From Tenacibaculum sp. (lineage in GTDB: Bacteria > Bacteroidota > Bacteroidia > Flavobacteriales > Flavobacteriaceae), in contig JAHDDQ010000004.1 of assembly GCA_020629275.1 (NCBI GenBank), forward strand, positions 1 to 64,000: 64,000 nt of DNA, written 5' to 3'. The notes below the pieces were generated by a model, which saw only the letters and a list, made by a program, of their open reading frames with translations, searched no databases and was not told the origin of the DNA. Every line of letters begins with the position of its first letter. Position 1 is the stretch's first letter. This document shows positions 5,626-57,840 of the stretch, piece by piece. The position numbers and the translations under genes are program-made.

Positions 5626-8094
5626 TTAAAAAGGATAATTAATTCCAATATTATAAACAGCATTTGAGAAATTAAAATTTCTAAACCATCTATTACCTGT
5701 TAAATAAGGTTCCCTAGCTTTGAATCCTAAATCCAAACGAGCGACTAAAAATTTAAAATCATAGCGAATACCAAAACCAGACGCAATTGCAATATCTGTA
5801 ATGGATTTTAAATTTTTAAATTTAGACTCTTCATCTACTGAAGAAGAATTGGTGATGTCCCAAATATTTCCAGCATCAACAAAAATGGCACTTTTTAAGT
5901 TTCCAGCGATATCAAACCGATATTCAAAAGAGGATAAAAACTTTAAACTTCCTATGTTATATTCTAAACCAGGAGGTCTTCTACCTGGACCCAAATCATA
6001 AGTTCTCCAGGCTCTAATATCGTTAGATCCTCCGGCGAAATAGCTTCTAGAGAAAGGAATGGTAGATTGATTATAAGTAATTATGGCTCCTAAAAAAGTT
6101 CGGTGAGCTAAAACATTATTATCACCTAAATCCCAAAATTTTTTGTATTCTAAATCAGTTTTAAAGTATTGTGCTACTGGTATCTTGAAAACGGTGGCTT
6201 GTCCACTTTGATTTTTTTGCTTTGAAAGCAATCCCATAACATTTCCAGAATTTGCAATCCTAGCACTGAAGTAAGAGAAGTTAGCGTCTTTAATATTCTC
6301 TTGATTGTTATAAGTAAAAGTATATGCTATTTCAGGAATTAAGAAGTCAGAAGTAATTATTCCGTATCTATTAATTATGTTCGATAAGGAAGTTAAGTCA
6401 GAACTGCTTAAGTTATTGGCATTATTAATTATGATATTTGCATAATCTGTTATAGCATTAAAATTACCAGGAATATTTTCAGGAACTTGAATGTTTGGAA
6501 TCACATTTCCACCTATAGATATTAGTTTTCTATATTCTGAACTATATATATTGAAGTAATTACCTACATTTAAATTTCTAATATATTGTGCATTTAACAA
6601 CTCTAACTGAATGGACTTTGTACGACTGAACTGCCATTTATAGTCTACACCCAATGATATATTTTGTTTATCTAGTGCAATATTTCTTTGAATGCTTAAA
6701 CCTGTGTAAAAAGATGTTCGAGGTACAAGTTTATGTAATCCAAAAGGAGCCATAAATCTCGGGACTTCAAGGGAAATGTTACTACCTAATTCCCAACCAG
6801 GACCGTTTCTTGAATTAAAATAAGATCCTAGCATGGAAAATTTGAAAATTTCAGCTCCTTTAAATGTATTTCGATTAGTAATCGAGAATTTTGCCGAAAT
6901 ATCAAAATTTCGAATGTTAGATCGAGATAACTCGGTTTCTAAACCAATCGTATATTTTTCAATAGGAGTTAAAAAAATATTAGCATTTAATAGTTCATCG
7001 CTATTTTTTACTTCTGTATAACGAATAGATGTTGTTTTGAAATTCCGTAGACCTCTCAAATGAGTTTGAGTCAGCGTTCTTAAAGAATCAGTATATATTT
7101 GTCCAGGTTTTAAAAATATGGATTGAGAAAGATATTTAGGATTGTATCGTAATTTTTTACGCGCAAAAAAGTTTATCTTTCTAAAAGATACAGAATCTTT
7201 ATAAGGCTCGTTTCTAGTGTTGTACGAATAATCGGTGTAAATATTTATAGTATTGATTTTTTGAGTTTTGAAAGGCTTAGAAATATAACTTCCATCTTTT
7301 TCAATTAATCGATCTAAAACACCTAATTCTACATTAGTTTTTCTGTAGTCATTTAAGGTGTCGTTAACAAATTCAATATAGTTTTCATTGAAATGAAAAA
7401 TCCCTTTATTTCTGTACAGTTTCACCAAGCGATCAGCTTCTTTAATGAAATCGTTATTTTTATATTGTTTTCCTCTTTTCAGAAAGCTTTTACCAGCATG
7501 TTCTTGATAAATAGAATCTAAAACTTTTGAACGTATATTCGTTCTTATAGTATCAATAAAAGAAGGTTCACCTTTTTGAATAGTATAGGTAATAGCGCCT
7601 TTCTTAGTATCAATTTCTTCTTTTTTGAACGATACTTTCGAACGAAAATAGCCTTCAGTGAAGAAATAAGTTTTTATTTTTTTTGCTGTTTTTTTTGTTT
7701 TAGCATCATCAATAATTACTGGAGGTTGACCATTATTCAAAAACCAATTATTAAGTCCGATAAAAGTATTTGCTACGGATATACTCTGTTTTTCAGAAAA
7801 GACATCTTTAAATGAGTTATACCAGCCAGGATGATTTTTTGCCCATTCTGGTACATCTCGAGAACCTTTAGGGTTTCCAATATTATAAAAATATAAAGAC
7901 AGCGGCAGTCCGATCGCCTTTACATTAGGTTTCTGTATTAATAAGTTATTAATACTATCTCCTTTTTGCTTTACACTATCAAGTAATACAGTATTTTGTA
8001 CAAGTAACAAACTATTATCAGGTACATGCTTTACTGTGCTACATGAGTATGTAAGTATGAGAAGTAAAAAAAAGTATTTAGAAAGTTTTTTCAT
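5626..8094 (-). CDS. tamL: TamL-type outer-membrane assembly lipoprotein (Omp85/BamA family)
   Basis: The protein is a lipid-anchored member of the BamA/TamA family, as in the TamL group of Bacteroidota, thought to help insert outer-membrane proteins together with TamB. It has a lipoprotein signal ending at SC (LLLLILTYSC). POTRA-like repeats follow, with the region around SKVSFKKEEIDTKKGAITYTI typical. The C-terminal half is a beta barrel containing the family's SYFAGGSNDIRAWRTYDLGPG motif and ending in NIGINYPF. I chose the ATG at 8094 (MKKLSKYF) over one 18 bases upstream because it gives a normal signal peptide. It is divergent from the TrmH-family gene; a minus-strand TAnnTTTG box (plus-strand CAAAAATA, 8121-8128) lies between them. 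Confidence 0.88.
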   Translation of the reverse strand: MKKLSKYFFLLLILTYSCSTVKHVPDNSLLLVQNTVLLDSVKQKGDSINNLLIQKPNVKAIGLPLSLYFYNIGNPKGSRDVPEWAKNHPGWYNSFKDVFSEKQSISVANTFIGLNNWFLNNGQPPVIIDDAKTKKTAKKIKTYFFTEGYFRSKVSFKKEEIDTKKGAITYTIQKGEPSFIDTIRTNIRSKVLDSIYQEHAGKSFLKRGKQYKNNDFIKEADRLVKLYRNKGIFHFNENYIEFVNDTLNDYRKTNVELGVLDRLIEKDGSYISKPFKTQKINTINIYTDYSYNTRNEPYKDSVSFRKINFFARKKLRYNPKYLSQSIFLKPGQIYTDSLRTLTQTHLRGLRNFKTTSIRYTEVKNSDELLNANIFLTPIEKYTIGLETELSRSNIRNFDISAKFSITNRNTFKGAEIFKFSMLGSYFNSRNGPGWELGSNISLEVPRFMAPFGLHKLVPRTSFYTGLSIQRNIALDKQNISLGVDYKWQFSRTKSIQLELLNAQYIRNLNVGNYFNIYSSEYRKLISIGGNVIPNIQVPENIPGNFNAITDYANIIINNANNLSSSDLTSLSNIINRYGIITSDFLIPEIAYTFTYNNQENIKDANFSYFSARIANSGNVMGLLSKQKNQSGQATVFKIPVAQYFKTDLEYKKFWDLGDNNVLAHRTFLGAIITYNQSTIPFSRSYFAGGSNDIRAWRTYDLGPGRRPPGLEYNIGSLKFLSSFEYRFDIAGNLKSAIFVDAGNIWDITNSSSVDEESKFKNLKSITDIAIASGFGIRYDFKFLVARLDLGFKAREPYLTGNRWFRNFNFSNAVYNIGINYPF

Positions 8095-49952: not shown

Positions 49953-50708
49953 ATGCAAAACAGATATAATAAAAATAATGTTTACCTCTCCGAAAAAGAG
50001 CAAGAGCAGATAAAGAATTGCCCAATAATAATTGTGGGTGCTGGTATAGGAAGTGTAATAGCTGAGTGTGCTTTGCGATTTGGATTTGAAAATATTACAA
50101 TAGTAGATACAGAGAAAGTAAAGTTGTCTAATTTGAGTCATCAAAACTACACAGAAGACGATATAAATACTAATGCAGTAGAAGCTATTAAAAAAAGACT
50201 GATAGCAATTAATAAGGATGCGAAAATTAAAGTGTATGATAATCCTTTAACGGAAGATATTACAGTATCATTAATAAAAGATCACAAAATAGCAATTAAT
50301 GCTTTAGATTTCACCTCAGAAATTCCATTAGAATTTGATCGAACCTGTCAACAAAAAAGTATTCCAGTATTGCATCCGTACAATTTAGGATGGGGAGGTT
50401 TGGTAACTATTATAGCACCAGATGGATTGGCGCTAGACTTACTTGAAAAGCCTGAAGAAATGTTAAACGAGATTCAAATAGCAGAATATGTTTCAAGTTA
50501 TTTGAAATTCTGGAGAACACCTCACATTTGGATCGATGAAGTTTTGGAGAAATATAAAGATAAAGAAGATACTTTTCCTCCAGCCCAACTATCCATAGCT
50601 TCTTGGACTGTAGCATCTATGTGTACTCATTTACTATTTAATATTGTTACCAACAAAGAATTTAAAAAGTTCCCAGAGTTTTACTTATCAACAGTAATGA
50701 ATGGTTAG
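49953..50708 (+). CDS. ThiF/E1-like adenylyltransferase-fold protein
   Basis: The 251-residue protein has the Rossmann start of the E1/ThiF/MoeB family: PIIIVGAGIGSVIAECALRFGFENITIVDTE (ATP-binding GAGIGS at 29-34, Asp52). NLSHQ (60-64) follows in place of the canonical NLnRQ. It lacks the CxxC zinc pair near the C terminus and has no obvious thioester cysteine. Such enzymes adenylate a protein or peptide C terminus, as MccB does in microcin C7 synthesis; the substrate here is unknown. It is transcribed alone from the operator A promoter and ends 4 bp into the convergent luxR gene. Confidence 0.82.
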   Translation: MQNRYNKNNVYLSEKEQEQIKNCPIIIVGAGIGSVIAECALRFGFENITIVDTEKVKLSNLSHQNYTEDDINTNAVEAIKKRLIAINKDAKIKVYDNPLTEDITVSLIKDHKIAINALDFTSEIPLEFDRTCQQKSIPVLHPYNLGWGGLVTIIAPDGLALDLLEKPEEMLNEIQIAEYVSSYLKFWRTPHIWIDEVLEKYKDKEDTFPPAQLSIASWTVASMCTHLLFNIVTNKEFKKFPEFYLSTVMNG

Positions 50709-51463
50709 ATCAACTTATTATTTGTTGCGTAAGCTATAGCCTCAGAAATATTGGCGACTTCTAACTTGTCAAATAATTTTTTTCTATGGAACTTAACCGT
50801 ATCTGGCGAAACAAAAATAGAATTAGCTACCTCGTTAATAGTATATCCTCTAGAGGAATATTGTAATATTTCTTTTTCTCTACTGGTTAACTTTATTTTC
50901 TCCGTAGCTTTCCAGAAGTCCCCTTCTAAATCATATTTAAAAATCTTATTATCTCCTTTCTTATAAATTTTAATATTACCCGATTGTTGTTCAGCCGATA
51001 ATGATATGATACAAATAGCTTTCCATATTTGTCCATTAGCTGTTAGAAATAAGGGAGTTAACTTTTGGTTGATTAAAATAACTTTACCTTCTTGGTTCTT
51101 CAAATTAAAGTCATACGAAATAGTATGCCACTTACGATCCTCAACAGGAATTTTATCATAAAAATCAAACCCTATGGTATTAATCTTTAATAATAAATCT
51201 AAGTCAGATTTGGTAACATATTTGAAGTAAAAGGAATACCCCATTTCTTTTACTTCTTCAGCTGAATGTCCACAAAGAAACAAAGGGTTATCTGAAACAT
51301 ATTCAAATCCTTTCTTCTGATAATCGATAACATAAATGCTTTTATAGGTGGTCCTAGCAAAAGCCTTTATAGGTTCTAAATAATCAGAAGTCTGATTTTG
51401 CTCATCATTAGAAATACTTCCCACAGTATTTTTAAATGAGAAGAAATCATTTATATCGGTCAT
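50705..51463 (-). CDS. LuxR-family regulator with N-terminal PAS-like domain
   Basis: The protein has a sensory region (residues about 25-165 of the chosen start) with PAS-like features: SIYVIDYQKKGFEYVSDNP, LFLCGHSAEEV and KWHTISYDFNLKNQEGK. A C-terminal LuxR helix-turn-helix follows (LTSREKEILQYSSRGYTINEVANSIFVSPDTVKFHRKKLFDKL). There is no receiver domain, so it should sense a ligand or partner directly. I prefer the ATG at 51463 (MTDINDFF) to an upstream one at 51511 because the latter would cover the promoter. It is divergent from the GNAT gene and the obvious candidate for binding the four dyads of this locus. Confidence 0.88.
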   Translation of the reverse strand: MTDINDFFSFKNTVGSISNDEQNQTSDYLEPIKAFARTTYKSIYVIDYQKKGFEYVSDNPLFLCGHSAEEVKEMGYSFYFKYVTKSDLDLLLKINTIGFDFYDKIPVEDRKWHTISYDFNLKNQEGKVILINQKLTPLFLTANGQIWKAICIISLSAEQQSGNIKIYKKGDNKIFKYDLEGDFWKATEKIKLTSREKEILQYSSRGYTINEVANSIFVSPDTVKFHRKKLFDKLEVANISEAIAYATNNKLI

Positions 51464-51479
51464 AACGGAGGAGTTTACA

Positions 51480-51487
51480 CAAATATA
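51480..51487 (-). promoter_or_regulatory. -7 box of luxR
   Basis: Plus-strand CAAATATA reads TATATTTG on the minus strand (TAnnTTTG), 16 bp before the preferred start codon. Confidence 0.65.
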
Positions 51488-51503
51488 ACTTTTTTTATAA
51501 AAA

Positions 51504-51519
51504 CTACACAAACGGGTGG
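51504..51519 (-). promoter_or_regulatory. LuxR-type operator D, weaker copy upstream of luxR
   Basis: On the minus strand it reads CCACCCGTTTGTGTAG, one base off CTAC in the left half and a perfect right half. It lies 16 nt, not 22, from the luxR -7 box, which places it over the -33 region. The different spacing suggests repression of luxR by its own product; that is inference. Confidence 0.55.
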
Positions 51520-51541
51520 TTTTTACTTAATATGCTGGTAA

Positions 51542-51557
51542 CTACACCTTTGTGTAA
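51542..51557 (+). promoter_or_regulatory. LuxR-type operator B, upstream of the GNAT gene
   Basis: CTACACCTTTGTGTAA contains the perfect inner repeat TACAC-CTTT-GTGTA. A 22-nt spacer separates it from the -7 box TAGTTTTG (51580-51587). Confidence 0.78.
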
Positions 51558-51579
51558 TATATCCACTAGCATCTCTAGG

Positions 51580-51587
51580 TAGTTTTG
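51580..51587 (+). promoter_or_regulatory. -7 box of the GNAT gene
   Basis: TAGTTTTG matches TAnnTTTG, 22 nt after operator B and 18 nt before the start codon. Confidence 0.7.
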
Positions 51588-51605
51588 AGAGTAAAATATA
51601 CCATT

Positions 51606-52295
51606 ATGATACTAGCTAAAAACTATTTAGGAAAACTTAATTCAACTCAAATATTTGACCTTGCAAAATTCGTTGTAGATGAAAATTTTAGTCATCATGC
51701 AGATAACAATTTACCAGAAGAGTATGTAAATGACATAAAATCTATCTGTAATGAAGAAGCAAAGTATTATAATGATTCTGAAATTTATGTTTCTAAAAAT
51801 GATTTAGGCTCGATATCTGGAGCAATACGTGTTTTAAAATGGAATTACATTGATGAATTACCAATACAAAAGATTTTTGGAATAAATCCCTTACTTGCTT
51901 TAAAAAGTCCTAAAATAAACGATATATATCATATAGGGCGATTTGCTATTAGTAAGAATACTACGGATAAAAATTTATTTAAAAAATTAATGGTATTAGC
52001 TATAACTCCAATTTGTAAGGAAGAAGGAAATATAGCTTTTGCAGAATGTGATAGTAAACTACTAAGAATACTTAATCTTTTAGGTATTAAAACACATGTT
52101 ATTGGTGATTCAATAGAATATTTAGGTTCAGAAACTATTCCAGTAGCAATGACTTCAGAAGGTTTAATGAACTTTTATAATAAGTACAAATATCTGGTTT
52201 CAGAAGAGGTCATAACACCAAATAATGAAGAAACGTACACACTACCTAAAAGTGTAGTTTTCAATGGTTCAAACCAAAGCTACCCTTTAGTGTAG
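51606..52295 (+). CDS. GNAT-fold protein resembling acyl-homoserine-lactone/N-acyl amino acid synthases
   Basis: The 229-residue protein is not recognised with certainty. The layout resembles LuxI/FeeM-like GNAT acyltransferases: an N-terminal half with YYNDSEIYVSKNDLGSISGAIRVLKWN, then IYHIGRFAISKN (the family's E/I-x-R-F-like strand), then KLMVLAITPICKEEGNIAFAECDSKLLRILNLLGI. I chose the ATG at 51606; an upstream TTG at 51585 lies inside the promoter box. It has its own LuxR-type promoter and its stop codon lies inside operator C. With luxR and the E1-like gene it could make or modify a signal. Confidence 0.7.
   Translation: MILAKNYLGKLNSTQIFDLAKFVVDENFSHHADNNLPEEYVNDIKSICNEEAKYYNDSEIYVSKNDLGSISGAIRVLKWNYIDELPIQKIFGINPLLALKSPKINDIYHIGRFAISKNTTDKNLFKKLMVLAITPICKEEGNIAFAECDSKLLRILNLLGIKTHVIGDSIEYLGSETIPVAMTSEGLMNFYNKYKYLVSEEVITPNNEETYTLPKSVVFNGSNQSYPLV
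52280..52295 (+). promoter_or_regulatory. LuxR-type operator C, upstream of the precursor operon
   Basis: CTACCCTTTAGTGTAG overlaps the last codons and stop of the GNAT gene. It is 22 nt before the -7 box TAGCTTTG (52318-52325), the same architecture as operators A and B. Confidence 0.78.
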
Positions 52296-52317
52296 TAATG
52301 ACTAGGGAGTTAAAAGT

Positions 52318-52325
52318 TAGCTTTG
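52318..52325 (+). promoter_or_regulatory. -7 box of the precursor operon
   Basis: TAGCTTTG matches TAnnTTTG. The predicted start near 52331 leaves an untranslated leader of about 115 nt that contains the palindrome TTGGCCAA (52368-52375). Confidence 0.7.
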
Positions 52326-52446
52326 AAATGTATTCAAGAAACAACAATACACAATAACAAAAAAACCTTGGCCAAAGGGGAAGACCAAAAACGGGAACAT
52401 GTCTTAAAACTGCATTCATATTTACTAATACTAAAAACTTTAAAAA

Positions 52447-52584
52447 ATGAAAAATTCAAATCCAGAAAACTTCTTAGACACACAAGAATTATCAGCATTG
52501 GAAAACGAAACTGTAACAGGAGGAGCAGACGCAGTTGACGTGGAAGTTAAAAAAGAGAAAAAGAAGGAAAAAGCTTCAAACTAA
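52447..52584 (+). CDS. Double-glycine peptide precursor 1
   Basis: The 45-residue peptide has a leader starting MKNSNPENFLDTQELSAL and ending VTGG at residue 26. The 19-residue core is ADAVDVEVKKEKKKEKASN, extremely rich in Lys and Glu, with no Cys, Ser-rich or aromatic part. The leader is shared almost exactly with precursors 2-4, while the core varies. It is first in the operon that also encodes an oxygenase and a C39 exporter. The peptide would be cut after Gly-Gly during export. Confidence 0.85.
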   Translation: MKNSNPENFLDTQELSALENETVTGGADAVDVEVKKEKKKEKASN

Positions 52585-52608
52585 TTACTAACCAATAAAC
52601 TTTAAAAA

Positions 52609-52743
52609 ATGAAAAATTTAAATCCAGAAAATTTCTTAGATACACAAGAATTATCAGCATTGGAAAATGAAACTTTAACAGGTGGAGCTGATAATGTAGA
52701 CGAAATCGTAGTAGAGAAAAAGAAAGTTAAAAAAAGAAAATAA
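52609..52743 (+). CDS. Double-glycine peptide precursor 2
   Basis: The 44-residue peptide has the same leader as precursor 1 with two substitutions (Ser to Leu at 4, Val to Leu at 23). The core after GG is ADNVDEIVVEKKKVKKRK, 18 residues with an acidic start and a basic end. It starts 24 bp after precursor 1. It is too short for most gene finders but is supported by the leader's conservation. Confidence 0.85.
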   Translation: MKNLNPENFLDTQELSALENETLTGGADNVDEIVVEKKKVKKRK

Positions 52744-52756
52744 TTAATTAAGAAAG

Positions 52757-52888
52757 ATGAAAAATTCAAGCCCAGAAAACTTCTTAGATACACAAGAATT
52801 ATCAGCATTAGAAAACGAAACTGTAACAGGTGGTAATGCTGTTGAAGATGTAAAAGTAGAAAAGAAGAAAGAAAAAAAGAGAAAATAA
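52757..52888 (+). CDS. Double-glycine peptide precursor 3
   Basis: The 43-residue peptide has the shared leader (MKNSSPENFLDTQELSAL, ending VTGG) and a 17-residue core NAVEDVKVEKKKEKKRK. The core keeps the pattern of the family: a short acidic/Val start followed by a Lys-rich tail. It is 13 bp after precursor 2. Confidence 0.85.
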   Translation: MKNSSPENFLDTQELSALENETVTGGNAVEDVKVEKKKEKKRK

Positions 52889-52914
52889 TAACTAACCAAT
52901 AAATATTTAAAAAG

Positions 52915-53103
52915 ATGAAAAATTTAAATCCAGAAAATTTCTTAGACACACAAGAATTATCAGCATTAGAAAACGAAACTGTAACAGGAGGATCTGCGGC
53001 TGTAGATGATGTAATAGTTAAGAAAGAGAAGAAGAAAGAATTTCTTAATAACTCTTTTAAAAGGGGTGGTCATTTCTCAGAAACACCCCTTTTTATTTTC
53101 TAA
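52915..53103 (+). CDS. Double-glycine peptide precursor 4, with extension through a terminator
   Basis: The 62-residue peptide has the shared leader to VTGG and the core SAAVDDVIVKKEKKKE, followed by an aberrant tail FLNNSFKRGGHFSETPLFIF. That tail is translated from a terminator hairpin. A tandem stop TAATAA (53046-53051) lies one frame away, directly after the Lys-rich part where the sister genes end. So the natural stop has probably been lost through a small slip in the A/G-rich tract. The longer product might still be exported. Confidence 0.8.
   Translation: MKNLNPENFLDTQELSALENETVTGGSAAVDDVIVKKEKKKEFLNNSFKRGGHFSETPLFIF
53059..53098 (+). terminator. Internal terminator in the precursor operon
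   Basis: AAAAGGGGTG (53059-53068) pairs with CACCCCTTTT (53084-53093), then a T run. It follows the four similar precursor genes and precedes precursors 5 and 6 and the enzymes. Partial termination here would give more precursor than enzyme. The reading frame of precursor 4 runs through it. Confidence 0.75.
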
Positions 53104-53121
53104 TTAAACAAAGAAAAGGAT

Positions 53122-53274
53122 ATGAAAAACAAAGAAACCCCAGAAAGTATTTTAGAAACACAAGTGCTAACAGCCCTGGAAAATAGATGCTTAAAAGGAG
53201 GTAATGCTACCGAAGATAATTTAACAACAAAATGTAAATGCAAATGCAAATGTAAGGAGGAAGCTACTTCTTAA
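53122..53274 (+). CDS. Double-glycine peptide precursor 5, tetracysteine core
   Basis: The 50-residue peptide has a diverged leader (MKNKETPESILETQVLTAL, ending LKGG at residue 27). The core is NATEDNLTTKCKCKCKCKEEATS, which carries four cysteines in strict alternation with lysine (CKCKCKC). No other core in the locus has Cys. Such a run could bind metal or be turned into thioether or disulfide links, but no lanthionine or YcaO enzyme is visible nearby. It is the first gene after the internal terminator. Confidence 0.82.
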   Translation: MKNKETPESILETQVLTALENRCLKGGNATEDNLTTKCKCKCKCKEEATS

Positions 53275-53323
53275 ATAACACGTATTTATTATAAAACCAA
53301 CAAATCCTATAAAACTCAAAAAA

Positions 53324-53464
53324 ATGATTAACAAAAAAATAAAGCCAGAAGACTTTTTAGATATTCAAGAATTGTCAGCATTAGAATGCTTCAATTTAAA
53401 AGGAGGAAAAGATGAAATAGTTCTTAAAAAAGGGTTCAAGAAAAGAGATCACATTAAACATTAG
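53324..53464 (+). CDS. Double-glycine peptide precursor 6
   Basis: The 46-residue peptide has a diverged leader (MINKKIKPEDFLDIQELSAL, ending LKGG at residue 28). The core KDEIVLKKGFKKRDHIKH is basic and contains two His and one Phe. It ends 5 bp before the oxygenase gene, so the two are translationally close. ENFL/EDFL, QELSAL and GG are the conserved leader elements across all six. Confidence 0.8.
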   Translation: MINKKIKPEDFLDIQELSALECFNLKGGKDEIVLKKGFKKRDHIKH

Positions 53465-53469
53465 AAAAG

Positions 53470-54765
53470 ATGGAAAATAATTTCAATAGAGATTGGTGGC
53501 TTTCATTTATCGAAAAAAACCTCTCATTCTCGCAAACACAGGTATATAAAAATGTGTTTACTAAAGATTTGGTAAGTACATTAAATGAAGGAGTTCGTGA
53601 AATGCTTAGATCTAGAATTAATAGGCTAGATATTAATAGCGGATTCAGGTTGTATATTAATGATAAAGAATTAAGTGATTCTGAAATCAGAAAGGTAATT
53701 AAGAATAATAAATTAGGTGAAACTGAAGATATCGAAGCATATTGTAGTCGTGTATTTGGTGAAAAATTCGGAATTATTACCAATTATGGAGAAAAGCATT
53801 CTGAGATTTTAGCAGAACATATTCTAAGAACAGTACAACCATTGTTTGATATTATAGGAATTCCACCATGGGGCCTAGAGCTAACTACTTTTATTGGAAA
53901 TTATGGATGGACACCTTTAGGAATTCATACCGATAATAGAGGAGAAAATGTATTGCACTATCATTTAGGACCTGGTAATAAAAAAATGTACGTATGGGAC
54001 GAAGAGGTTTACGAAAAGGAAGGAAAAGGAGTTTCAAATAACAAGAATGTTGAGCCGCTATTGCCGCATGCTAAAGAATTTGAATTCGGAACTGGAGATT
54101 TATATTACATGCCTTGGAATAAACATCATATAGGGTATTCAGGAGAGTTCTCTGTAGGAGTAACCTTATGGTTCAACAACCCTACTCGATACGATTTTTC
54201 TAAGTTGATGATAGAAACTATTCAAAATCTATTTTTGAAGAATGATCAAAGTATCATAGAAAGTCAAATAGACTACGTTACTAATGAAAATACCTTTTTA
54301 GATTTTATTAATACGTTAAATGTTGATAGAGAAACATTAAACGCACCATTAGAAGACTTCCTTAAGCATACTTACAACGAGTACAAGAAGTGCTTAATAA
54401 GTAATGGAGGATGGCAGAATATACCTTTGAGTCATCATAAAAAAATAGAAAGTACTAAAGAGTATTTTCCTAATCTAGAAACGAAAAGAGTAAGAACGAA
54501 TAATCTTTACAAGATCAATACAGAACGAAATGGTGATCGATTAGTAATTTATGTTAGAGGAACTAGATTATCATTTAAATATTTTGACGAATTACAAGAA
54601 ATAATAGACATGTTGAATGTAGGAGAGTCAATAGCTGTTATAGATATGATTAATCGATTTGACAGACTGCCTAAAGATGTTGTTTTATACTTTTTAAAAG
54701 TTCTCATAAATAACAAAGGAGCTAAAATTGAAGAAGTTGAATTAACAGAAGCAGTGTTATGTTAG
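53470..54765 (+). CDS. JmjC/cupin-type Fe(II) oxygenase, probable peptide hydroxylase
   Basis: The 431-residue protein has a double-stranded beta helix with GIHTDNRGENVLHYHLGPG (His153, Asp155) and DLYYMPWNKHHIGYSG (His219 or His220), the HxD...H iron triad of 2-oxoglutarate oxygenases. The C-terminal part (about 340-431: LVIYVRGTRLSFKYFDELQEI, PKDVVLYFLKVLINN) resembles the winged helix of ribosomal oxygenases such as RoxA/YcfD. Its place between the precursor genes and the exporter suggests it hydroxylates the peptides. Target residue and product are unknown. Confidence 0.78.
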   Translation: MENNFNRDWWLSFIEKNLSFSQTQVYKNVFTKDLVSTLNEGVREMLRSRINRLDINSGFRLYINDKELSDSEIRKVIKNNKLGETEDIEAYCSRVFGEKFGIITNYGEKHSEILAEHILRTVQPLFDIIGIPPWGLELTTFIGNYGWTPLGIHTDNRGENVLHYHLGPGNKKMYVWDEEVYEKEGKGVSNNKNVEPLLPHAKEFEFGTGDLYYMPWNKHHIGYSGEFSVGVTLWFNNPTRYDFSKLMIETIQNLFLKNDQSIIESQIDYVTNENTFLDFINTLNVDRETLNAPLEDFLKHTYNEYKKCLISNGGWQNIPLSHHKKIESTKEYFPNLETKRVRTNNLYKINTERNGDRLVIYVRGTRLSFKYFDELQEIIDMLNVGESIAVIDMINRFDRLPKDVVLYFLKVLINNKGAKIEEVELTEAVLC

Positions 54766-55262
54766 ATCATTATGAAATAAAGAAAGAAGGAAAAAACAAA
54801 TATGTATTCTACAATAAAGAAAATGTAGAATATCAATTAGTTGTGAAAGTCTCAGGATTACAGTATCAAAATGAGGAAGGTAGCTATAAAAATGTTTTAG
54901 AAATCGCTTTAAACTGCGATACCAATACAGCGAATAAAGATTATTTAACGGTAAAGACTTTGGCAGCTTTTTGTACCCAAGTAACTAAGCATTACGATGC
55001 CGTTTACATGCAAATACATAACCAGCCAGAAATAATAAATAATAATAAAATAGAACGAAGAGGTATTTCCAGAATACGACTTTGGAACAGAGTAGTTAGT
55101 AAATACTTTAATGATTATATCATGTTAACTAATCTAGTTTTAGCGCCAAATAGTAATAGTGATTTACTAAGCGTTGTTGTAAAAAAAGACTCTGTTTATT
55201 TTAAAAAGGTAGTAGCGAATTTTTACCGCTTCTGTTACCGTAAAATGTATAAAACCATCTAG
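54759..55262 (+). CDS. Uncharacterised 167-residue protein of the peptide locus
   Basis: I do not recognise this family. The protein is mainly beta then helical, with YQLVVKVSGLQYQNEEG, CDTNTANKDYLTVKTLAAFCTQVTKHYDAVYMQ and a very basic end FYRFCYRKMYKT. It has no signal peptide and no TM segment. It starts 7 bp inside the oxygenase gene and ends 4 bp before the exporter, so it is tightly bound to this operon. It may be a second modifying enzyme, a leader-binding partner or an immunity factor. Confidence 0.7.
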   Translation: MLDHYEIKKEGKNKYVFYNKENVEYQLVVKVSGLQYQNEEGSYKNVLEIALNCDTNTANKDYLTVKTLAAFCTQVTKHYDAVYMQIHNQPEIINNNKIERRGISRIRLWNRVVSKYFNDYIMLTNLVLAPNSNSDLLSVVVKKDSVYFKKVVANFYRFCYRKMYKTI

Positions 55263-55266
55263 CAAT

Positions 55267-57465
55267 ATGTTTAAAAGTCATAACTCAAATATTAAGTTCG
55301 TAAGACAGCATGATTTAATGGATTGTGGACCCGCTTCTTTAAGTATGATTACAAGTCATTATGGCAATAAGTTTTCATTACATAGCTTAAGAGCGTTATG
55401 TCAAATAGGTAAAGATGGCGTTTCTATGCTAGGAATTATTCATGCCGCAAAAAAGATAGGATTTACATCTAAATCTATTAAGTTAAACTTAAAACAATTA
55501 GTAGATAATTTTATAGCGCCATGTGTTTTATATTGGAATAAGAATCATTTTTTAGTTCTTGAAGCCATTACATCAATAAATGGTAAAAATAGATTTCATA
55601 TTCTCGATCCTGCTCACGGAAGAGTGGTATTAACAGAAGATGAGTTTAGGAATCCTTGGTTAAAAGGAGAAGAATCTGGAATTGCCTTATTTTTAAATCC
55701 TACAGATGCATTTTTTACACTCAAAGATCAAAATACACTAAAAGATCGTTTAAAACACATCTTAGTTTTATTCGCTCCATATAAGCGTAAGATAGGAATG
55801 TTGATGATTTTTGTATTAATAGGGAGTTTACTCAGTATTATGCTTCCTTTCTTAACTGAGGCATTAATAGATAAAGGTGTAAACACAAAAGACCTAGACT
55901 ATGTAAGCTTAATTCTTTTAGCACAATTATTCGTTTTTTTAGGAATAATGGGAACTACAATTTTAAGAAACTGGTTTACATTAATTGTTGGAGCCAAATT
56001 TAGTATAGATATTATTTATTCATATTTAAGTAAAATTTTAAAACTACCGATGAGTTTTTTCGATACCAAAAACTCTGGAGATTTTAATCAAAGAATACAG
56101 GATAATGTTAAGATAGAAGAGTTTTTTACATCAGATAGTATTTTAACAGTATTCTCTATCTTAACATTAATCATATATTCAGTCATTTTACTGTATTACG
56201 ATCCATATTTATTTATACTCTATCTTGGGTTAACAATCATAGCTGTGTATTGGTCTTTCTTCTGGTTGAAGAGGAGAAAGGTGTTAGATTATCAATTATT
56301 TAGAGCTAAGTCTGAAAATCAAGAAGCCGTTTACGAATTCTACAACGGTATTAAAGAAATGAAATTAAATCAGTATGAAGATTATAAGAAAAATGAATGG
56401 ATAACATTGCAAAAACGTTTACTATCTATAAATATAAAGTCATTAAAAATAGAACAATTTCAATCCATCGGTTTTACGTTTTTCAATCAACTTAAAAATA
56501 TCTTAGTTACTTTTTTAGCAGCAAGTTATGTAATACAAGATTCCATAACGCTGGGAGCTTTGTTAAGTGTTTCATTTATAATTGGGCAAATGAATTCTCC
56601 TATTCAGCAAGTATTAGTATTTATACGATCACAACAAGACGCTATGTTGAGTTTTGACAGATTGAGTGAGGTTTATACGCAAGAGGAAGAAGAGAAAGAT
56701 ACAGATATTGTACTAAATCTAGCATCTGAGCCAGTTGATGTTACGTTAAAAAATGTAGACTTTAAGTATAATCTATTATCAAGGAATTACATTCTGAAAG
56801 ATATAGATATTACAATTCCAAAAGGAAAAGTAACCGCAATAGTAGGACATAGTGGAAGTGGGAAAACAACACTGATGAAATTATTATTGAAATTTTTCGC
56901 CACAGCTTCAGGAGAAATACGTTACGGAAATCATGAAATTGAAGAAATTTCAGCACAAAGCATTCGGGAGCATTCTGGTATTGTAATGCAGGATGGTTAC
57001 ATATTTAACGATACTATTGAAAGAAATATAGCACTAAATGAAAGAGAAATAAATCAAGAAAAATTGTACAAAGCTCTAAAGGCGGTCAATTTAGATGAGT
57101 TTGTAACATCATTAGCTTTAAGAGAAAAAACAAGGATAGGTTCCGGAGGAAATGATGTTTCTGGCGGACAAAAACAGCGAATCTTAATAGCTAGAGCTAT
57201 TTATAAAAATCCAAAATATATTTTTTTAGATGAAGCTACTTCAGCGTTAGATGCAACAAACGAAAAAGAAGTTCATAATAATTTACAGAAGCTTTTTAAA
57301 AATAAAACAGTAGTAATTATAGCGCATCGATTAAGTACCGTACAAAATGCAGATCAGATTATAGTATTATCGAAAGGTGCTGTAGTTGAGCAAGGTACAC
57401 ACGAAGAATTAATTACAAAGAAAAATCACTATTACACATTAGTAAAAAACCAATTAAATATTTAG
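55267..57465 (+). CDS. C39 peptidase-containing ABC exporter (PCAT)
   Basis: The 732-residue protein both cleaves and exports double-glycine peptides. The N-terminal C39 domain has the catalytic Cys20 in RQHDLMDCGPASL, His94 in NKNHFLVLEA and Asp114 in HILDPAHG. The six-TM domain covers about 165-450. The ATPase has Walker A GHSGSGKTT (about 525-535), the signature VSGGQKQR (about 633), Walker B IFLDEATSALD (about 652) and the switch His in IAHRLSTV. It should remove the leaders of the six precursors upstream. Confidence 0.95.
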   Translation: MFKSHNSNIKFVRQHDLMDCGPASLSMITSHYGNKFSLHSLRALCQIGKDGVSMLGIIHAAKKIGFTSKSIKLNLKQLVDNFIAPCVLYWNKNHFLVLEAITSINGKNRFHILDPAHGRVVLTEDEFRNPWLKGEESGIALFLNPTDAFFTLKDQNTLKDRLKHILVLFAPYKRKIGMLMIFVLIGSLLSIMLPFLTEALIDKGVNTKDLDYVSLILLAQLFVFLGIMGTTILRNWFTLIVGAKFSIDIIYSYLSKILKLPMSFFDTKNSGDFNQRIQDNVKIEEFFTSDSILTVFSILTLIIYSVILLYYDPYLFILYLGLTIIAVYWSFFWLKRRKVLDYQLFRAKSENQEAVYEFYNGIKEMKLNQYEDYKKNEWITLQKRLLSINIKSLKIEQFQSIGFTFFNQLKNILVTFLAASYVIQDSITLGALLSVSFIIGQMNSPIQQVLVFIRSQQDAMLSFDRLSEVYTQEEEEKDTDIVLNLASEPVDVTLKNVDFKYNLLSRNYILKDIDITIPKGKVTAIVGHSGSGKTTLMKLLLKFFATASGEIRYGNHEIEEISAQSIREHSGIVMQDGYIFNDTIERNIALNEREINQEKLYKALKAVNLDEFVTSLALREKTRIGSGGNDVSGGQKQRILIARAIYKNPKYIFLDEATSALDATNEKEVHNNLQKLFKNKTVVIIAHRLSTVQNADQIIVLSKGAVVEQGTHEELITKKNHYYTLVKNQLNI

Positions 57466-57470
57466 AAATT

Positions 57471-57797
57471 ATGAAAATTAAAATATTAGGAATCATTAGT
57501 TTATTGTTTTTAGTATCGAGTTGTGGAATTAGTAATAATTTATCCTCAAAATATGAAACAGTATATTCTAAAACAATAGCAGAAGAACATTATGAGTCAA
57601 TATATAAAATCTTAAAAGAGAATATTGAAGGCTTTGACGCAAAGGAAGTTCAAAAAACAAAATATGTAGAGCAGAATAATAAATACTACCTTAAAATCCA
57701 CCTAAAGAAAAAACATTTTAAACTAGTTTATAGGAGCGATGTTGGTTATGATAGCAGGATAGAGACTATAAAGTCTGAAATAGAACGTGTTATATAA
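57471..57797 (+). CDS. Small lipoprotein at the end of the peptide operon
   Basis: The 108-residue lipoprotein has the signal MKIKILGIISLLFLVSSC (Cys18). It contains a charged region with FDAKEVQKTKYVEQNNKYYLKIHLKKKHFKLVYRS. There is no known domain. It starts 5 bp after the exporter and is the last gene before the terminator. Its position suggests a role in immunity or export. Confidence 0.75.
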   Translation: MKIKILGIISLLFLVSSCGISNNLSSKYETVYSKTIAEEHYESIYKILKENIEGFDAKEVQKTKYVEQNNKYYLKIHLKKKHFKLVYRSDVGYDSRIETIKSEIERVI

Positions 57798-57805
57798 CAA
57801 CTAGC

Positions 57806-57840
57806 AAAAAAGAGATACTGGCATTAGTATCTCTTTTTTT
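57806..57840 (+). terminator. Terminator of the peptide operon
   Basis: AAAAAGAGATACT (57807-57819) pairs with AGTATCTCTTTTT (57826-57838), with a T run. Confidence 0.88.

Follow-up and report, generated by a model that had tools for sequence, protein, structure and literature searches.

A ribosomal-oxygenase-type enzyme encoded beside repeat-core peptide precursors and a C39 exporter: a probable RiPP-type system of Flavobacteriales

In this study, we analysed a peptide gene cluster in a 64,000-nucleotide stretch of Tenacibaculum sp. DNA (assembly GCA_020629275.1, contig JAHDDQ010000004.1; hereafter the window). The contig is number 35 in a draft genome of 4.14 Mb, with 89% completeness and 6.9% contamination. 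Precursor peptides with double-glycine (GG) leaders and repetitive cores are encoded beside a JmjC-type Fe(II)/2-oxoglutarate (2OG) oxygenase and a C39 peptidase–ATP-binding cassette (ABC) exporter, and the type of repeat is matched to the clade of the oxygenase. The cluster thus has the leader/core precursors and adjacent candidate modifying enzyme that characterize ribosomally synthesized and post-translationally modified peptides (RiPPs), the core being the presumed site of modification. We consider it probable that this is a RiPP-type system of Flavobacteriales, in which an enzyme of the ribosomal oxygenase type hydroxylates the repeat cores and the C39 protein cleaves and exports them. 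The system is real and recurring and is best read as a new RiPP variant or subtype with a predicted chemistry.

All on the forward strand between 52447 and 57797, six precursor genes (together spanning 52447-53464) are followed by genes for the oxygenase, a 167-residue protein, the exporter and a small lipoprotein (Table 1); the oxygenase and 167-residue-protein genes share a few bases. This is the gene set that a first-pass annotation, made from the letters alone, had listed, and every gene of it is present. The span given there, 49953-57797, does contain these genes, but it begins with a trio that the annotation left unnamed, namely a ThiF-family gene, a LuxR-type regulator on the opposite strand and a GCN5-related N-acetyltransferase (GNAT)-like gene, all upstream of the precursors. 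Gene order, leader and repeat type are the same in Aquimarina (L002) and Zobellia (L003), whose oxygenases are 80% and 66% identical to that of the window, so the layout is more than chance. The annotation had also seen no lanthionine, YcaO, radical-SAM or ATP-grasp enzyme, and this held when the seven non-precursor genes and three of the precursors in 49953-57797 were scanned with Pfam and NCBIfam. A nitrile hydratase leader peptide (NHLP) gene is likewise absent from the window cluster.

Precursors 1–4 share the leader MKN[SL][NS]PENFLDTQELSALENET[VL]TGG, to which the leaders of precursors 5 and 6 are related. In the related loci, short open reading frames (ORFs) adjoining the oxygenase carry the leader FLxxxxL[ST][AP][LM]E....GG. 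The GG is invariant among 22 aligned precursors, and a profile built from these 22 found 91 proteins; no NCBIfam family scored above its cut-off for the eight precursors tested. The first four genes had been described as having nearly identical leaders and different cores; the leaders are as described, but the cores are two phases of one EKKK repeat (DVEVKKEKKKEK and DVKVEKKKEKK). Nor does the simple Lys/Glu/Asp/Val composition attributed to the cores extend to core 5, a KCKCKCKCK repeat kept in the relative P0166, or fully to core 6, which is less simple and has a near-identical relative, P0177. Beyond EKKK and KCKCKCKCK, the repeats comprise polyglutamine with or without VV/II, Val/Gln/Arg (VVVVRVVRVVQQVQRVIGL) and HHHDGRHHHD; the core at L035 is of a VKET type (VKVSVKETVKETVTETN), and that at L016 begins as polyglutamine and continues as an Asn run. 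A script sorted 92 cores into 52 Lys/Glu, 17 polyglutamine, 14 Val/Gln/Arg, 3 HHHD, 1 KC and 5 others, with the VKET core counted among the last. At L014, an extra GG-leader peptide with a Cys- and Gln-rich core (IAGCSPMCDNPTTQCQCQGQQQQ...; 8747-8920) lies beside the polyglutamine precursors.

The lowest 16-residue entropy averaged 2.1 bits over the 86 cores of at least 16 residues, 3.01 bits over 91 leaders and 3.08 bits over 5000 control segments, and 80 of the 86 cores fell below the control 5th percentile. Nine lanthipeptide-type cores, an unfavourable control, gave 2.2-3.0 bits, and low entropy alone is therefore not diagnostic. That the cores are chance low complexity of A-rich DNA is ruled out by their codons. 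Over nine core codons, precursor 1 differs from its Aquimarina counterpart (7577) by five synonymous and no non-synonymous changes, the core codons of precursor 3 differ from those of its counterpart (7093) by two and none, and CAA and CAG are both used within polyglutamine tracts. By these comparisons, the core codons are constrained at the protein level.

The two EKKK phases, A and B, are offset by two residues, and two cores of each occur in the window (52447-53040) and in Aquimarina (7093-7711). Label shuffling over eight contigs, of which the window and Aquimarina are known directly to hold the clusters and the other six are assigned by inference, gave seven of eight mixed (p 0.14) and a balance p of 0.048; the pattern used by the script assigned 17 of the 52 Lys-rich cores to neither phase. 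These figures are only suggestive that phase-A and phase-B peptides are partners in a two-peptide system.

As the first-pass annotation had required of its proposal, the oxygenase, exporter and precursors recur together in other genomes. A search of 5.8 billion proteins returned 143 oxygenase homologues at E up to 1e-3, with identity falling to approximately 33% among the 120 matches listed. An oxygenase profile of 29 rows matched 2 of 395 genomes sampled across the phylum, 8 of 397 in the family and 11 of 395 in the order. The window genome and the Zobellia genome (G182) were in all three samples, giving 17 different matched genomes, and in 12 of these the oxygenase is full-length and near a C39 exporter. 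The Aquimarina locus came from a further search, and L013 is a second entry for the Zobellia locus L003. The genome G780 has an additional oxygenase fragment of ~100 residues elsewhere. The precursor profile matched all 12 genomes with oxygenase and exporter (ten of them had supplied its rows, G623 and G1055 none), and its 19 matches all lie within ~1 kb of the oxygenase, with none away from it at E up to 0.01 in the 12 whole genomes. None of 11 relatives without the oxygenase matched, most of which hold other peptide clusters; the genomes of the five short oxygenase relatives described below were outside this search.

The HxD...H Fe ligands of the oxygenase are invariant in all 29 aligned homologues and present in all 15 oxygenases of the loci. 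Its predicted structure (pLDDT 91) matches YcfD, NO66 and MINA53, which are β-hydroxylases, over residues 2-422 at 11-16% identity, the C-terminal winged-helix region included. An HExxH motif is absent from the 431-residue sequence, and the predicted fold is JmjC. At the sequence level the likeness is distant: 20 of the 29 members match JmjC_2 (PF08007) at E up to 1 (best 3.2e-4), the family profile gave one weak JmjC match (E 0.56) among Protein Data Bank (PDB) sequences, and no NCBIfam family scored above its cut-off. The C-terminal part comprises strands 350-354, 357-362 and 365-370 and helices 373-383, 390-396 and 402-414. This β3-α3 order is given, in a passage of PMC12710340, as that defining the RiPP recognition element (RRE). 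The winged helices of ribosomal oxygenases may share it, and thus the order is not specific to an RRE. The ribosomal-oxygenase fold and this C-terminal domain did not figure in the first-pass annotation.

In a tree of 26 oxygenases, a single change accounts for each of the Lys/Glu, Val/Gln/Arg and HHHD labels, and two for polyglutamine. All core labels jointly require five, which is the minimum, while shuffled labels needed 14.9 on average and were never as low in 200 trials. The labels were set by hand, and 11 of the 26 rest on an inferred pairing of oxygenase and precursor; one of these pairings gave P0006 the label Lys/Glu, although the script sorted its Lys-rich but irregular precursor, P0164 (MSQIQNKCKKDKDCKTKKDQTIQQ), as 'other'. 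The tree carries L035 as 'none' and L016 as 'Nrun', which were later read as a VKET core and a polyglutamine start before the Asn run. The tandem oxygenases of a single locus (L038) supply three of the four HHHD rows, and near-copies and long branches further weaken the test. Core type tracks oxygenase clade, consistent with an enzyme whose substrate is the core. This bears on another reading, in which the GG-leader peptides stay unmodified and serve as bacteriocins or signals, while the oxygenase has a cellular protein, for instance a ribosomal one, as its substrate and sits in the operon as a partner or immunity function. The enzyme has the fold of ribosomal oxygenases, a few of its relatives lie outside peptide clusters, and polycationic peptides can be antibacterial without modification. 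However, core type follows the oxygenase clade, the precursors are found beside the oxygenase only, and in G1022 (L038) three tandem oxygenase genes stand beside one precursor. We regard this reading as very improbable.

The comparisons support the first-pass inference that the cores are hydroxylated and exported, and we propose the following pathway for the repeat peptides. Transcription would be under the probable control of LuxR and GNAT, possibly with ThiF, perhaps via an acyl signal, and a hairpin after precursors 1–4 may favour precursor over enzyme messenger. The β3-α3 domain of the oxygenase would bind the leader (FLxxxxL[ST][AP][LM]Exxxx) and present the core to the Fe(II)/2OG centre for hydroxylation of several repeat residues, most likely at the β carbon as in YcfD, NO66 and MINA53. 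In the Lys/Glu clade, lysines may next be acylated by the 167-residue protein. The C39 domain would cut after GG, and the product would reach at least the periplasm. The oxygenase might instead install cross-links or desaturations within the same peptide system, yielding macrocycles. Fe/2OG enzymes are chemically versatile, and a 2025 JACS paper reportedly, by its title, concerns 2OG-dioxygenase-catalysed macrocyclization in RiPPs. The nearest solved folds are, however, hydroxylases, and homopolymeric Gln or Lys/Glu cores have no obvious distinct cross-link partners, making this outcome distinctly unlikely. A more ambitious form of the hydroxylation proposal is a new RiPP class defined by iterative β-hydroxylation of nearly every homorepeat residue, carried out by a ribosomal-oxygenase-type enzyme with a built-in leader-binding domain. 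To this would be added repeat chemistries that evolved separately in each clade (Lys/Glu, Gln, Val/Gln/Arg, His-Asp and Val-Lys-Glu-Thr), a dedicated acyltransferase setting a second mark in the Lys/Glu clade, EKKK peptides that are two residues out of phase, with charges swapped at alternate positions, and that work or assemble in pairs, and LuxR/GNAT/ThiF acyl-signal control shared by many Bacteroidota RiPP clusters. This fuller picture may hold, but we doubt it.

Several observations weigh against the proposed pathway. The JmjC_2 match of the window oxygenase scores 14.9 bits, below the gathering cut-off of 22; the whole-chain root-mean-square deviation to YcfD, NO66 and MINA53 is ~7-10 Å, so domain placement differs; and none of the 29 family members matches the PqqD/RRE profile (PF05402) at E up to 1. 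Five divergent relatives of 344-409 residues (L017, L018, L019, L039 and L040) have no exporter within ~16-20 kb, and thus not every member of the oxygenase family belongs to a peptide cluster. The precursor match in 12 of 12 genomes is partly circular, ten of them being profile sources, whereas the genome-wide absence elsewhere is not. The polyglutamine type, with its two changes, is not a single clade on the oxygenase tree. The first-pass annotation had made its proposal depend on orthologous clusters being free of any enzyme that defines a known RiPP class. This is so overall at the related loci, as judged from lists of ORFs, a search for CxxxCxxC motifs, Pfam searches of a few genes and BLAST with one example each of LanB, LanC, radical SAM and NHLP, but one of the 12, a polyglutamine locus, has a CxxxCxxC radical-SAM gene (L036 2840-3943, PF04055 E 4.3e-10), located past the exporter and on the opposite strand. 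The window cluster has no HlyD/TolC gene, which leaves release from the cell unexplained, and lacks the outer-membrane protein that accompanies 9 of the 12 related loci.

The ribosomal oxygenases YcfD/RoxA, NO66 and MINA53 resemble the window oxygenase in predicted fold, C-terminal winged helix and HxD...H motif; unlike them, it is encoded beside GG-leader peptides and an exporter, and its predicted substrate is a peptide core rather than a ribosomal protein. Parts of PMC12707348 and PMC12257519 describe the JmjC enzyme BipG as hydroxylating ornithine within a RiPP precursor. BipG and PbsQ, the JmjC/cupin ornithine hydroxylases of biphenomycin pathways, are thus JmjC-type Fe/2OG enzymes with a basic core residue as target, but in those accounts theirs is a tailoring step beside a multinuclear non-heme iron-dependent oxidative enzyme (MNIO), an arginase and a B12-radical-SAM enzyme (PMC12707348, PMC12257519). 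Here, the oxygenase is the sole recognised core-modifying enzyme, the 167-residue protein aside, and the cores are repeats. According to portions of PMC12636437, the 2OG-dependent HExxH enzymes PosC and PflC hydroxylate four or five consecutive Gln residues, at the β position as shown for PosC. Iterative hydroxylation along a glutamine run, which we infer for the present system, is therefore not a new idea, as an HExxH enzyme of Pseudomonas already does so; the present enzymes differ in having an HxD...H JmjC fold, in occurring in Flavobacteriales and in being paired also with Lys/Glu, Val/Gln/Arg and His cores. The nearest published hint found is a passage of PMC12710340 on JmjC (PF08007) fused to a β3-α3 domain, with bacterial relatives said to occur in RiPP-like contexts; section 6 of that paper names no precursors, core types or cluster. 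Like the PCAT/C39 systems of class II bacteriocins, lanthipeptides and NHLP peptides (PCAT, peptidase-containing ABC transporter), the window cluster combines a GG leader with a C39-ABC exporter, but it is without lanthionine, YcaO, radical-SAM, ATP-grasp or NHLP genes and without an HlyD/TolC partner.

In the literature searched, which lay outside most subscription journals, the cluster, its precursors and the LuxR/GNAT/ThiF trio are not described, and we found no description of a JmjC/ROX enzyme with a repeat-core series and clade matching. If the proposal is correct, the cluster would represent a RiPP subtype with an enzyme of the ribosome-hydroxylating oxygenase fold as its main catalyst, and would connect the hydroxylation of ribosomal proteins with natural-product chemistry. 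The poly-Gln, Lys/Glu, Val/Gln/Arg and His cores would then form a substrate series for studying residue choice by JmjC enzymes, and the defined precursor-enzyme pairs make the published hint on JmjC proteins with RRE-like domains directly testable.

Table 1 Features of the repeat-peptide cluster and its flanks in the window.
Feature	Position	Strand	Detail
ThiF-family adenylyltransferase-like gene	49953..50708	+	PF00899 E 5.8e-29
LuxR-type (GerE) regulator	50705..51511	-	PF00196 E 1.4e-15; likelier start ATG ~51463
GNAT-like acyltransferase	51585..52295	+	ATG start 51606; TIGR03694 E 6.8e-4
Precursor 1	52447..52584	+	core ADAVDVEVKKEKKKEKASN, phase A
Precursor 2	52609..52743	+	core ADNVDEIVVEKKKVKKRK, phase B
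Precursor 3	52757..52888	+	core NAVEDVKVEKKKEKKRK, phase B
Precursor 4	52915..53103	+	core SAAVDDVIVKKEKKKE, phase A; atypical tail running into hairpin
Hairpin + U-run	53059..53093	+	fold -15.5 kcal/mol, z -3.76, 0/200 shuffles equal
Precursor 5	53122..53274	+	core NATEDNLTTKCKCKCKCKEEATS
Precursor 6	53324..53464	+	core KDEIVLKKGFKKRDHIKH, least simple of six
Ribosomal-oxygenase-type (JmjC) Fe(II)/2OG oxygenase with C-terminal β3-α3 (RRE-like) domain	53470..54765	+	431 residues, HxD...H
167-residue protein	54759..55262	+	seen only with Lys/Glu-type clusters
C39 peptidase/ABC exporter (PCAT-type)	55267..57465	+	PF03412 2.1e-32, PF00664 6e-30, PF00005 2.1e-31
Small lipoprotein	57471..57797	+	lipobox-like LVSSCG by reading
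Inverted repeat, T-runs both sides	57806..57839	.	consensus scan, listed on - strand

The 167-residue protein, a possible second modifying enzyme that the first-pass annotation did not propose, may belong to the GNAT acyltransferases as a very divergent member. The CoA-binding motif of GNAT proteins is [RQ]xxGx[GA], and at the junction of strand 97-100 and helix 101-116 the family has QRRGLA in P0214 and ERRGIS in the window. Pfam gave weak unrelated matches only, and a single-sequence search of PDB sequences returned nothing below E 0.25. Matches of its profile to PDB sequences of designed β-propellers and others (E down to 7e-7, with no significant stretch in any) were rejected as a repeat-summation artefact.

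The exporter comprises C39, ABC membrane and ABC ATPase domains with the motifs QHDLMDCGPASL, NHFLV and ILDPAHG. The DCG motif with the C39 Cys is present in all 13 exporters; simple script patterns missed the His in L037 and L038, the Asp in L038 and the ATP site in L037. A double-glycine leader together with an N-terminal C39 domain bearing the catalytic Cys marks the cluster, on sequence grounds, as a C39/PCAT system. At L036 (2840-5056), the ORF neighbouring the radical-SAM gene has a second CxxxCxxC motif, and these may form a separate or additional peptide enzyme. The lipoprotein family (3 rows) aligned with a protein of ~120 residues (5 rows) in hhalign with a probability of 94% and E 1e-7 over 66 columns; this relative occurs at L014, L015, L016, L036 and L037, which are polyglutamine loci. 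A role in immunity or periplasmic handling is a guess. Its Pfam match to the yeast mitochondrial protein PET122 (23.2 bits, cut-off 22.3) was taken as chance.

Proteins of the OMP_b-brl_3 type lie near the oxygenase in 9 of the 12 related loci (L002, L003, L014, L015, L016 and L035-L038), with Pfam run on those of L002, L014 and L038. Together with HHHDGRHHHD and KCKCKCKC cores, which look metal-binding, they raise the possibility that hydroxylated Lys/His/Gln repeats act as metal chelators or as a surface coat and are handled by the outer-membrane protein, a statement about function that is compatible with hydroxylation of RiPP cores. Such genes, however, also flank lanthipeptide and radical-SAM clusters (L070 and L075), and none is shown at the three Val/Gln/Arg loci L032-L034. 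In the window genome the closest relative (56%) is on another contig (L100 7194-9609), split between two frames, and the idea is silent on Lys/Glu cores; we judge it unlikely.

The GNAT-like gene upstream of the precursors had no Pfam match at E up to 1 and scored 19 bits against TIGR03694 (cut-off 112), a distant likeness to exosortase-associated acyltransferases. Its family is present in 24 of 391 genomes of the order. Among 20 further GNAT loci, a LuxR-type gene adjoins in 19 (all but L073) and ThiF in 12, and 13 of the 20 adjoin peptide genes of other kinds: lanthipeptide or lanthipeptide-like GG peptides (L069, L070, L084 and L085), radical SAM (L075) and NHLP type (L074 and L077-L083, with a single peptide at L083), the classes being assigned by BLAST against a single example of each and by Pfam searches of ten proteins. 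By BLAST, the trio was not found at L014, L035, L036 or L037, and L015 and L016 gave only an unrelated LuxR-type match. The trio is therefore a portable neighbour of several kinds of peptide cluster and not part of the oxygenase chemistry. The weak exosortase-associated-acyltransferase match and the divergent LuxR suggest that the trio may make and sense an acyl signal. Because it occurs beside four kinds of cluster (oxygenase, lanthipeptide, NHLP-type and radical SAM), the trio is a useful entry point for mining Bacteroidota peptides and for addressing whether they use such a signal. In a ThiF alignment of 17 rows (16 loci, the Zobellia locus entered twice), the window alone has SNLSHQ without the following Lys, while the others have SNLNRQ, SNLNRE or TNLNRQ. 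The E1-type Arg and Lys, catalytic residues kept in its relatives, are missing from the window copy, which may have lost adenylation activity and be inactive. In G1022 (L038 15110-17376), ThiF and GNAT are each broken up into two ORFs, which points to decay of the trio.

The genes of the cluster had been described as following one another without gaps. They are all there, but the hairpin within the 3' end of precursor 4 (Table 1) means that the run may not be one even transcript. By its predicted fold, this hairpin is a possible terminator or attenuator after precursors 1–4; a consensus terminator scan with a loop limit of 8 did not pick it up. The inverted repeat beyond the lipoprotein gene is a possible but weak candidate for a cluster-end terminator, the scan having found 3 sites in the region against 2.4 expected. 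Precursor 4, with its atypical tail, may have lost its usual stop.

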